Below, piece by piece: positions 7,550 to 35,642 of a stretch of DNA of 64,000 bases. The notes under the pieces are model-generated. The model worked only from the letters and a program-made list of their open reading frames with translations, had not been told where the DNA came from and did not search any database. The DNA comes from Diphasiastrum complanatum (lineage: Eukaryota; Streptophyta; Lycopodiopsida; Lycopodiales; Lycopodiaceae): contig CM055114.1 in NCBI GenBank assembly GCA_029204225.1, positions 15,485,407-15,549,406 on the forward strand, in the 5' to 3' direction. The number at the start of each line of letters is the position of its first letter. Position 1 is the stretch's first letter. The translations under genes were made by a program, and so were the position numbers.

Positions 7550-7850
7550 TTACAGCATCAGCATAGCAACAGCAGCAGCAGTATCATAGCCTTGACATCT
7601 TGACATAGATACAGATGATTATTATGCGCACACATACTCTCGCATACATGTCTATTTTAGCTTTTTAGTTGTACTAGATGTTTTATTACAGTTTTGGAGG
7701 CGTTTTATACGCTCCCACGGTTACCACATACTTGACATGTACTTCATTAGTCTTATATGCCTTTTGGCATGGAAAAGACATTAATAAAGCTTTCTTTCTC
7801 TCTCTCTCTCTCTCTCTCTCTCTCTCTCTCTCTCTCTCTCTCTCTCTCTC
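7550..7850 (+). mobile_element. LINE copy L2, 3' terminus and (TC)n tail
   Basis: Only the 3' end of a LINE is present. It aligns by eye with the 3' UTR of L3 (TTTGGAG.CGTTTTATACGCTCC, TACCACATACTT.ACATGTA). The hairpin ATGCC-TTTT-GGCAT (about 7759-7772) is followed by ATTAATAAAGCTTTC and a (TC)n tail at about 7798-7850. The full-length copy L3 starts on the next base, making this the first unit of the plus-strand array. The left boundary is approximate. Confidence 0.82.
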
Positions 7851-7915
7851 CGCGATGGTGATGGCTGTCCATCGCTGATCTCTCTCCCCCTCTCCCGCCG
7901 TCCTCTCCCACCTCC

Positions 7916-9107
7916 ATGGCACGCAAAACCAGGGGGAGCCCTTGCTCCCCCACTCCTCCCCACCCCCCTCCATCACCCTCTACCCCACTCCCTTCCTCCG
8001 CTCTACCTACTGCTCCGCCCCCCTCCCTCCGCTCCACCTGCTGCTCCACCCCCCTCCTCCGCTCCACCTCCCTCCACTCCACCCGCTGCTCCGCCCCCCT
8101 CCTCCGTTTCACCTCCCTCCACTCCATCTGCTGCCCACCAGCCACCCTCCGCTCCACCTGCTGCCCACCACCCCTCCTCAGCTCCACCCGCTACCCTGCC
8201 CTACCCATCTGCTGGTTCGACCTCTTCCTCCGCTCCACCTGTTGCCCAGCCACCCTCCTCTGCTCCACCTGAGCAACAGGCCCCTCCTGCTGCGCAACAG
8301 CAATCCCACTCAAGCCCTCCCTCATCCCTTGTCCCTTCGACTCCCATCTCTACCAACGCTGCTCCAGACACCCCCTTCTTGTCTCATGCCGACTACACCA
8401 CCTCCAAATCCTTCGAGAAGTTCCTAGCCTACCAACTGAAAGAACTGAAGGCAGATGTGCAAACTCTGAAACTGGAAATCATCCACCTACGCACAGAGAA
8501 CCAACAACTCCAAACAGAAATGGAAAATAAATATGCTTCCCAGCCAGAAGAAGAGACAAAGCTGAAGATTCAAGATCTGGAACAGCAACTGAGCCAGCAC
8601 AAAGAATCGACCAAAACATGGGCTTCTATCATCACCAACAACAAAGCTACCAGCCCACCTTGGACAGCCTATGGCGGAAGTAAGTCTCCCCCCTTTTCAT
8701 CATTCATTTCCACTACTCTTACGGAAGAGAAACTCCGAGATTCCAAGGCTCTCAATATTAGGGTACGAGGCATCGTGGACACCCAAAATGCCATTGACGA
8801 AGCAAAAAGATTTTTATGCACTACCCTAGGACACAATGCAGATGGTTTGGATACAGCATGGCGTACTAGAAAAGACACCGCTACCTTGATCCTCCGCTTC
8901 ACGTCACATACATATCGTAAGGCAACCTTGCGGAAAAGAACCAAATTGAGAGACACCAAAACCTTCATGGATGATGACTTTACCTATATCCAAGTTGAAG
9001 AGAGACGCCAAGCACTCCAAACCGTCAAAGCGACCGGAAGACGAGTGATCTATCGTGATGGAGTTGTTTGGTACCTCGATGGTACTGCATCCGGAAACAA
9101 CCTATAG
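7916..9107 (+). pseudogene. LINE L3 ORF1: proline-rich, coiled-coil, nucleic-acid-binding protein
   Basis: The start is placed at ATGGCAC (7916), which corresponds to the ATGGCAC start of the intact ORF1 at 42460. The N-terminal region is very rich in proline, serine and alanine (about 7916-8370) and contains at least one frame break. A heptad-rich coiled coil follows (about 8400-8620: LKELKADVQTLKLEIIHLR). The C-terminal domain has LNIRVRGI, DGLDTAWRT, TFMDDDFTYIQVEERRQAL and GRRVIYRDG. That layout resembles LINE ORF1 proteins, which bind element RNA; this role is inferred. It ends at TAG 9105-9107, in the same frame as ORF2. Confidence 0.75.
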
Positions 9108-9150
9108 GAAATTGGGGTCCCCGGGCATGGGAGCATCCCAGGATCCCCTC
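9105..9150 (+). promoter_or_regulatory. ORF1/ORF2 junction: in-frame UAG followed by GC-rich structure
   Basis: ORF1 stops at TAG (9105-9107). Six bases later GGGGTCC (9114-9120) can pair with GGATCCCC (about 9141-9148), with one bulge, enclosing a smaller hairpin TGGGA-GCA-TCCCA. The frame stays open into the endonuclease motif GIWNCNG with no intervening ATG. The first in-frame ATG (9255) is already inside the ETHE motif. The same layout occurs at 43366 and 21277. I infer stop-codon readthrough; non-AUG initiation is an alternative. Confidence 0.6.
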
Positions 9151-34200: not shown

Positions 34201-34565
34201 TATCATCTACCGAAGCTGAGTACAGGGCGACTACGAGGTCCGCCTGTGAAGCCATTTGGTTACGCCGTCTACTTGAGGACATGCAGATTGCTCAAGTAAG
34301 ACCTACATTGTTACATTGTGATAACCAAAGCTGCATTCAGCTTGCGAGGAATCCAGTCTATCATGCACGGACAAAACACATAGAGGTGGACCAGCATTTT
34401 ATACGAGAGAAGGTGCACAGTGGGGAGATCGAGCTAGTTTATTGTGACACCAACGACCAGACAGCTGATATTTTTACTAAACCACTTAGTAAAGATAAGT
34501 TTGAAAAGTTCAGAACTTTGTTGGGTGTCAGTTTGAATAAAATTGCCATTAAGGGGGGGTGTTGA
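31217..34565 (+). pseudogene. copia pol: protease, integrase, RT, RNase H (frameshifted)
   Basis: Protease WYIDSGASKHMT (about 31460). After a frame change, integrase has the HHCC zinc region (HQRYGHL...CEAC), SDLCGP, DDFSRKVWVY, RSDKGGEY and QQNGVAEQKNRS. A TGA at 32425 replaces tryptophan before AEAVATAVFLLNR. Sequence is missing at about 32640. A deletion near 33220 breaks frame just before RT (DYDETFAPVAKM, DVKSAFLNG, YGLKQAPRAWY, LYVDDLLITG). A last frame change near 34170 precedes RNase H (STEAEYRA, HARTKHIEVD, ADIFTKPL). All catalytic motifs are present, but not as one protein. Confidence 0.92.
34551..34559 (+). promoter_or_regulatory. copia polypurine tract
   Basis: AAGGGGGGG immediately precedes the TG of the right LTR, as expected for plus-strand priming. 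Confidence 0.85.
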
Positions 34566-34944
34566 AGAGTAATGCCTATTTTACCCCTTTTGGCTAAGCA
34601 TTAGTTAAGTTGTACATAACTCATGGGGCATGTTTTAATTAAATGCATGAGACCCCCCCTTTTGTTAAGTTATGTAAATTAGTGCAAGTGGCCCACTTGG
34701 CCAAGTAGCTCACTCCTATGGTTGACACCTAGACTTTCCATGCATGTAAAGGAGGTGCTTGCCTCACAAGGGATTTGGAGGACCCACGCCCTCCTCTCTC
34801 TCTCTAGCAATTCATTTCTTCTTGAGACTTTTGAGTTTGTGAGATGCTCATGCAATTCTCCTTGTGTGTGATATTTCCATAGCCAAGTTTTCTCAAGCTT
34901 TCATAGTTGATCTAGCATCCATAGCTAGGTCTTGTAAATCTTCA
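34560..34944 (+). repeat. copia right LTR
   Basis: 385 bp, TGTTGAAGAG to AAATCTTCA. It is followed by the target duplication CTACA (34945-34949). Confidence 0.93.
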
Positions 34945-35642
34945 CTACACAACGTGGATCCTCATACGTAACAAGGGAGCGCAAGGTGACTGGTGCATCC
35001 CTAAATCGACAATAGTATTTCCCACGAATCTCATAGTAGGCTGGGCATATGAAGATAAAGTGCTCCTTAGTCTCCATAGCGCTCAGGGAACAAAGCTAGC
35101 AGATCCTATCCTCTCGTGGAGTCCCCTGAAACCAACCAATCTCAACCTCAAGCTGGTGTGAGACACGGAACTGACCCAGTATAAATCTAAGACCATGTGA
35201 TAAACTAGAACACAAGTAACGTGGTGGACGTGGGATCCCTAACACATTTCTCTCCATAAAATGGAGCTGATAAAAGTCGGGTTTCGACCCCTAGCTGACC
35301 ATGCCAAGCTCAATCAAGATAAGCCCTGTAGATATATTGTCTGATGTAATCATGGGTACCTGAGGGAAGGGCACTGGTAGAGATGCAAGTGTGTCTAGGA
35401 GGCGAGAGGCCTGAGAGAACCAAGCTAACTGATACCCTGACTATGTAAGCGCTGGGATGAGATGAGAGCGGCCTGTGTATATCTCTGCTCGGAAGCCTAG
35501 AACTCACTGACTCACTACATATACGTGATGAGCTAGAGTATGGCATCTAGGGACATGGGAACAAGATGATATGGTGCGAAACTGAGGGCTATGCCCATAT
35601 CATACGTGAAAGCATAGTGATCTGAAGTCGTGAGATACTAGC

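Follow-up and report, generated by a model that had tools for sequence, protein, structure and literature searches.

How did the long interspersed nuclear elements (LINEs) of a clubmoss come to stand head to tail, each copy running into a (TC)n tract? The question is raised by a stretch of 64,000 nucleotides from Diphasiastrum complanatum (contig CM055114.1, positions 15,485,407 to 15,549,406; hereafter the window), in which LINEs make up a plus-strand array (7567-15609) and a minus-strand array (17261-35642). Within each array all LINE copies have the same orientation. There are 11 LINE 3′ ends in the window (five on the plus strand and six on the minus strand), each followed by a TC, TTC or TTTC tract, and poly(A) was found after none of the 11. 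These copies are probably those of L1-type LINEs whose RNA is recognised by a hairpin and whose reverse transcription is primed by (GA)n at TC microsatellites, including the tails of their own earlier copies. We put the probability of this reading at about two in three.

The genome (1.74 Gb, 5176 contigs) was searched with the LINE 3′ end. The search gave 2128 first-look candidates, of which 40 were scored, and 40 long and seven short matches were listed. The 40 best of the places listed were spread over 19 contigs, several of them far apart within one contig. Forty places were examined: the window copy (L2, described below), 20 places with 8 kb of upstream sequence and 19 with 2 kb. Eight loci were left out as duplicates, L009 and L027 by alignment and L029, L032, L037, L041, L045 and L046 by eye from their common flanks, leaving 31 loci and L2, or 32 copies. 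The LINE 5′ end gave 188 first-look candidates, against the 2128 of the 3′ end, both numbers being of candidates unconfirmed as matches. The background set was small, with 19 random pieces of 1.4 kb (26,600 bp) from 13 contigs. LINE similarity was found in none of these 19 pieces, and they held two TC/GA tracts of at least 12 bp (58 bp together).

Several LINE families share a 3′ end in which a conserved hairpin precedes an AATAAA-like box and a (TC)n tail. The hairpin is followed by a TTAATAAAG-like box, a short family-specific stretch (TTTC, TTC or TAATTC units) and then (TC)n, and families with these different 3′ ends all run into (TC)n. In an alignment of 13 distinct, hand-picked 3′ ends, the hairpin (GUCUU..AUGCC-loop-GGCAU..AAGAC) was 93.6% paired. 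Covariation was seen at four pairs, with 12 cells changed on both sides, versus 0 or 1 in slid controls. When six ends were folded singly, four clearly beat their shuffles (z −2.3 to −3.6) and two did not clearly do so (z −0.6 and 0.4). A covariance model of the 40 hairpin positions, which excludes the tail, was searched against the window, 59 loci and the 19 random loci. At an E-value of 0.01 or better, the window and the 59 loci together contained 72 matches, and the 19 random loci contained none. After removal of duplicates, 61 distinct hairpin ends remained, and all 61 carry a TC-containing tail: 54 are TC by a strict rule, three have TAATTC units and then longer TC, and four are short TC-containing tails. 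No poly(A) (a run of eight A within 60 nt) was found at any of the 61. Since the last 29 bases of the query were TC, TC tails were possibly favoured among 32 of the 61 ends, which are the query copy and the copies retrieved by it. The other 29, by hand count, were not chosen by the 3′-end query, and all seven ends that fail the strict rule are among them. TC on the 3′ side of all 61 cannot by itself separate a tail from a target.

In the window, array units are labelled L1 to L4 and M1 to M6 (the unit L1 is not to be confused with the L1 type), while loci elsewhere have three-digit numbers. The plus array begins with L1, a 5′-truncated LINE 3′ end (7567-7850; hairpin 7750-7789, TC tail 7797-7850), which is 83% alike to L2 over 269 bp. 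The first base of L2 (7851-12961) lies directly after this TC tail. L2 is a full-length family A LINE with an open reading frame 1 (ORF1) match at 8346-9104 and ORF2 at 9108-12836. Its 3′ hairpin and TTAATAAAG box lie at 12919-12958, and its TC tail has 51 repeats (12962-13063). L3 (13540-14548; hairpin 14435-14474, TC tail 14483-14548) is a 5′-truncated LINE of a second family. It is followed by L4 (14549-15344; hairpin 15219-15258, TC tail 15261-15344), which is also 5′-truncated and starts at TC. The last plus-strand unit (15345-15609) is a reverse transcriptase (RT) fragment truncated at both ends and lying between two TC tracts; its internal RT sequence (15345-15547) runs directly into TC without a 3′ end of its own.

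The minus array consists of six units. M1 (17261-17594; hairpin 17280-17319) is a LINE 3′ fragment with a short tail. M2 (17613-22010; hairpin 17636-17670, then a TC tail) retains ORF1 and ORF2 remnants, and by eye its 5′ end adjoins the tail of M3. M3 (22013-22535; hairpin 22042-22081) is a 3′ fragment that starts at the TC tract of M4 and has a (TTC)n(TC)n tail. M4 (22536-25760) has a TC tail at 22536-22602, a hairpin at 22610-22649 and an internal piece (about 24708-24963) without LINE match. In M5 (25763-29092), which starts at TC belonging to M6, the hairpin (25813-25852) is followed by a (TTC)n(TC)n tail (25763-25812). M6 (29096-35642; tail 29096-29118, hairpin 29119-29157) has a copia-like element inside, and its 5′ end is cut by a probable long terminal repeat (LTR) end. 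Read by eye, TC gives way to the next LINE in no more than about 10 bp at seven of the nine unit-to-unit junctions in the window; at an eighth, from M2 to M1, a short (TAC)n tract comes first.

The single orientation extends beyond the window. We scanned 1.9 kb downstream of 18 of 31 distinct tails and about 0.3 kb downstream of the other 13. LINE sequence there amounted to 11,855 bp on the same strand versus 0 on the opposite strand; upstream, at the same 31 loci, it amounted to 19,086 bp versus 4,036 bp. A LINE coding fragment started at most about 60 bp after the tail in 10 cases and within about 760 bp in six more. No LINE coding fragment followed in 14, and one tail lay at the end of its piece. 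Among the 14, the post-tail sequence of L010 and L030 resembles a LINE 5′ end by eye.

Evidence on the insertion site comes from the starts of the copies. An earlier note on this DNA had claimed that the LINEs end in (TC)n without poly(A), that each array has one orientation and that truncated copies start at TC. The first two claims are borne out by the results above, and so is the third, since 21 LINE fragments begin at most 10 bp from a same-strand TC tract. One of these, in L034, is ambiguous because a GA run lies between the TC tract and the LINE; a second GA case is the 3′ end of fragment 15345-15547 read from the opposite strand. By manual reading, 14 of 19 distinct ORF1-bearing copies come after a TC tract. 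Moreover, at four TC-tract insertions (window 42305, L014 6363, L020 1056 and L026 2883) the 900 nt to the left contain no LINE match. L012 8547 had been a further candidate, and it was dropped because LINE matches lie within 900 nt. The window case is an isolated, shortened family C LINE on the plus strand (42305-43848), flanked by TC (42305-42358 and 43775-43848), with ORF1 at 42451-43365 and part of the endonuclease; the TC on its 3′ side comes after a (TAATTC)n-like stretch.

Under the reading that we favour, the ORF2 protein would recognise the 3′ hairpin of the LINE RNA, as in LINEs of the stringent type, and, at a (TC)n.(GA)n tract, would nick the strand that reads (GA)n. Reverse transcription would then be primed by the (GA)n 3′ end exposed by the nick, through its pairing with the UC-rich RNA end. 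This would leave TC on the 3′ side, and often also on the 5′ side when second-strand joining falls inside the tract. Every copy would thus carry at its end a target, either newly made or retained, for the copy that comes after it in the same orientation, and head-to-tail arrays would result. Target-primed reverse transcription at TC is the simplest account: it would explain why the orientation is uniform, why several families have TC on their 3′ side and why truncated copies start at TC, and it would cover the four TC-tract insertions that have no LINE match in the 900 nt to their left.

Several observations weigh against this reading. The 5′ junctions of four of the 32 copies lie beyond the fetched piece. 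TC was found at only 11 of the 28 visible 5′ junctions (GA at none), and at two of the 11 it is short (9 nt in L017 and 12 nt in L034). By eye, the other 17 are three LTR ends (L021, L040 and L044), three other LINEs (L012, L013 and L022) and 11 other sequences. A scripted measure of bases common to both sides of the junction gave 0 at all 24 junctions; it is by eye only that the first element bases of L025, L033 and L034 look TC-like. L2 is followed, after its tail, by 476 bp (13064-13539) without LINE similarity before L3, four of the 61 tails are short, and short 3′-end pieces of neighbours are 79-98% alike over 42-201 bp. By sequence, the RT of L2 relatives scores somewhat better to solved R2 than to L1. 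Furthermore, an empty site was not found at the one duplicate locus checked (C4), where the family C LINE is present too, and thus the TC tract is not shown to be older than any one insertion. Since the random pieces hold only 58 bp of TC/GA in 26,600 bp, the 11 TC junctions are far above background; TC at the 5′ side is enriched but not the rule. Because many 5′ junctions lie outside TC, our reading needs a second step, in which either the cDNA end would be joined to DNA upstream, the rest of the tract being lost, or the RT would switch template to another RNA.

These results also qualify the other claims of the earlier note. Its statement that the next copy starts on the very next base after TC was close for most window junctions and fails at the spacer after L2. 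The 3′ (TC)n end that it gave to every array unit is present on most, the RT fragment at 15345-15547 having no 3′ end of its own. Insertion into pre-existing TC tracts gains from the four cases with no LINE match on the left and loses by the 5′ junctions and by the search for an empty (TC)n site, which it had proposed and which came to nothing. The proposed survey of the flanks of genomic copies upheld TC at the 3′ ends and did not extend it to most 5′ ends.

The TC could instead be the element's own tail, made by RT slippage on a UC-rich RNA end (as with the TAA repeats of the I element), with first insertions at many kinds of site and old tails serving as good targets. We consider this unlikely, though it deserves attention. 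It accommodates the 17 non-TC junctions and the four short tails, and the 69 TC versus 12 GA tracts of at least 12 bp in the distinct loci and the window, as oriented, are expected if tails supply most TC. It does not account well for the four insertions at TC tracts without LINE on the left or for the meeting of families with different 3′ ends at TC. Moreover, the 28 junctions showed no flanking direct repeats of at least seven bases, pure TC excepted, and thus ordinary target-site duplications are not seen. A whole array might also be one event, the RT jumping from one LINE RNA to the next tail and giving a concatemer. R2-type RTs do jump templates, and LINE-LINE joins without TC exist at L012 (6184-6957), L013 (5622-6054) and L022 (2970-6923). 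At each of the three, an upstream LINE belonging to another family breaks off before reaching its 3′ end, and a family A copy stands next to it. The LINE piece to the left of that copy itself begins at a TC tract in L013 and, less directly, in L022. Yet the TC tracts at many joins are long (275 bp at most, in L011), a non-LINE spacer lies within one window array, and units of one locus are only 65-69% alike in their long matches, so that we regard such concatemers as improbable.

The same similarity values bear on whether the arrays arose by unequal crossing-over between TC tracts, by segmental duplication or by misassembly. Focal copies matched other LINE pieces of their own locus at 65-69% (six matches of at least 150 bp, 18 loci), whereas focal copies at different loci had a median likeness of 95.2% (476 matches, range 69.7-97.6). 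Because long neighbour matches fall so far below those between loci, unequal crossover, which the earlier note had named as a possible source of the arrays, is unlikely. Recent duplications do exist (L009 and seven further pairs with common flanks), and the likeness of short neighbouring 3′ ends would suit this origin, but the pattern persists after removal of the eight duplicates. We therefore hold this origin to be very improbable, even less likely than concatemers. Judged from the sequences, the similarity pattern makes separate insertions of several families a better fit than the duplication of entire units. Some array neighbours belong to the same or close families, as the likeness of their short 3′ ends indicates.

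The duplication represented by L009 is large and recent. It links C23 and C4 (C4 at about 45.80-45.85 Mb), covers window positions 4991-14842 and 35762-42364 and is 99.3-99.9% identical in the compared parts. It takes in the plus array up to 14842, and TC tract lengths differ between the two copies; window 37515-39128 is absent from the C4 duplicate. L009 equals window 4991-14842 at 99.3%. The pair L2 and L009 (99.9% identical) had been considered as a recent transposition, and this was ruled out because the whole 9.9 kb is duplicated. L043 and L045 have a common 5′ flank and LINE copy and diverge beyond the tail. The family A copies of L018, L020, L036 and L047 lack internal sequence, so that distant parts of ORF2 are joined; splicing, template switching or deletion may be the cause.

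ORF1 of L2 is followed by an ORF2 with an endonuclease of the APE type (PF03372, E 2.2e-11) upstream of the reverse transcriptase (RVT_1, E 1e-7). This ORF2 carries two frameshifts and three stops, and thus the L2 copy is dead. The ORF1 at 42451-43365, which is of the second family, is open, and the LINE at 42305 has an ORF1 relative with 97% identity that is named as D. complanatum. An AlphaFold model of this ORF1 (mean pLDDT 69, pTM 0.32) predicts a coiled coil followed by an RNA recognition motif (RRM)-like domain and a C-terminal domain. Its best match in the PDB was the human LINE-1 ORF1p trimer (2yko, E 1.8e-5, TM-scores 0.25/0.35); the next matches were other RRM proteins with E about 1e-3. 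In a midpoint-rooted tree of 67 rows, built without named L1, Tx1, R1 or RTE reference rows, the ORF2 of L2 joined 17 other proteins and four from Adiantum nelumboides (SH-aLRT 100). At a minimum, the group defined by these sequences includes this lycophyte and a fern. The elements are best read as related L1-type LINE families of a clubmoss, given that the modelled ORF1 fold matches LINE-1 ORF1p. More tentatively, and with slightly less than even confidence, they might belong to an L1 lineage of non-seed plants with fern relatives that is (TC)n-specific through a UC-rich RNA end and hairpin-guided reverse transcription, with host TC microsatellites seeding arrays that extend themselves.

Other features lie in and around the arrays. 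The window opens with the 3′ part of a plus-strand LINE copy cut by the window start (1-556), with a hairpin at 490-529 and a short TTTC/TC tail. A 55-bp TC tract without an adjoining LINE (16765-16819) lies about 1.2 kb past the plus array. The copia-like element within M6 (29682-34944) has LTR-like ends (29682-30061 and 34560-34944) that are 97.9% identical. Two direct repeats (35643-35768 and 39255-39377) are 94% identical and are probably LTR ends, and the LINE in L044 adjoins what looks by eye like a similar end. An open frame at 45101-46255 follows a (GA)19 tract and, by eye, looks like the zinc-finger start of a putative hAT-type transposase gene.

Among known systems, the Zepp LINEs of green algae, which end in poly(A), are the nearest in arrangement. 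Zepp and ZeppL are described as L1 LINEs of Coccomyxa, Chlorella and Chlamydomonas that insert into their own copies and form tandem arrays in which 3′ ends predominate, 5′ truncation being frequent; in Coccomyxa they form one cluster per chromosome, probably at centromeres (PMC8226300, PMC3446292). Same-orientation arrays of mostly 5′-truncated copies were likewise found here, as in Zepp-like nesting. The clubmoss LINE differs in that its tail, and often its target, is (TC)n and in that its matches lie on many contigs. The earlier note had called the arrangement unfamiliar in plants: searches of the open-access literature listed no microsatellite-targeting LINE of plants or lycophytes, and no report of a TC-targeting one in land plants was found, although nesting on own copies is familiar from the algae. 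Microsatellite-targeting animal LINEs such as Kibi were reportedly treated by Kojima and Fujiwara in 2004, and Kibi and Koshi use TC repeats. Togen, which is near NeSL and uses (TG)n, and some HERO families are also described as inserting into microsatellites (PMC4640811). Insertion into microsatellites is their likeness to the clubmoss LINE; however, Togen and HERO belong to groups with a restriction-like endonuclease, whereas the clubmoss LINE is of the APE type and has a lycophyte host. According to a review (PMC12477314), microsatellites are often found around plant and human elements.

Almost all L1 LINEs of flowering plants are described as ending in poly(A), and a monocot lineage within ME1 (Ohshima) as having a conserved 3′ stem-loop with compensatory changes, of the stringent type (PMC3747384). 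By description only, the clubmoss hairpin resembles this covarying stem-loop, while its (TC)n contrasts with the poly(A) of flowering plants. Vertebrate LINE-1 targets T-rich sites, and the clubmoss LINEs resemble it in the predicted ORF1 fold and in the APE endonuclease and RT of ORF2. LINE-1 uses poly(A) (PMC3747384). Poly(A) and T-rich targets thus stand against (TC)n in the clubmoss. By analogy, the clubmoss LINEs are best read as combining the nesting of Zepp with microsatellite targeting of the animal type.

The site at which a LINE inserts depends on where the endonuclease cuts and on how the RNA end pairs with the nicked DNA. In a plant LINE whose RNA end, target and junctions are of one dinucleotide, the pairing step could be tested by simple changes of the tail. 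Such a LINE would also help to explain the origin of the long TC microsatellites near these elements and the growth of clusters of LINE fragments.

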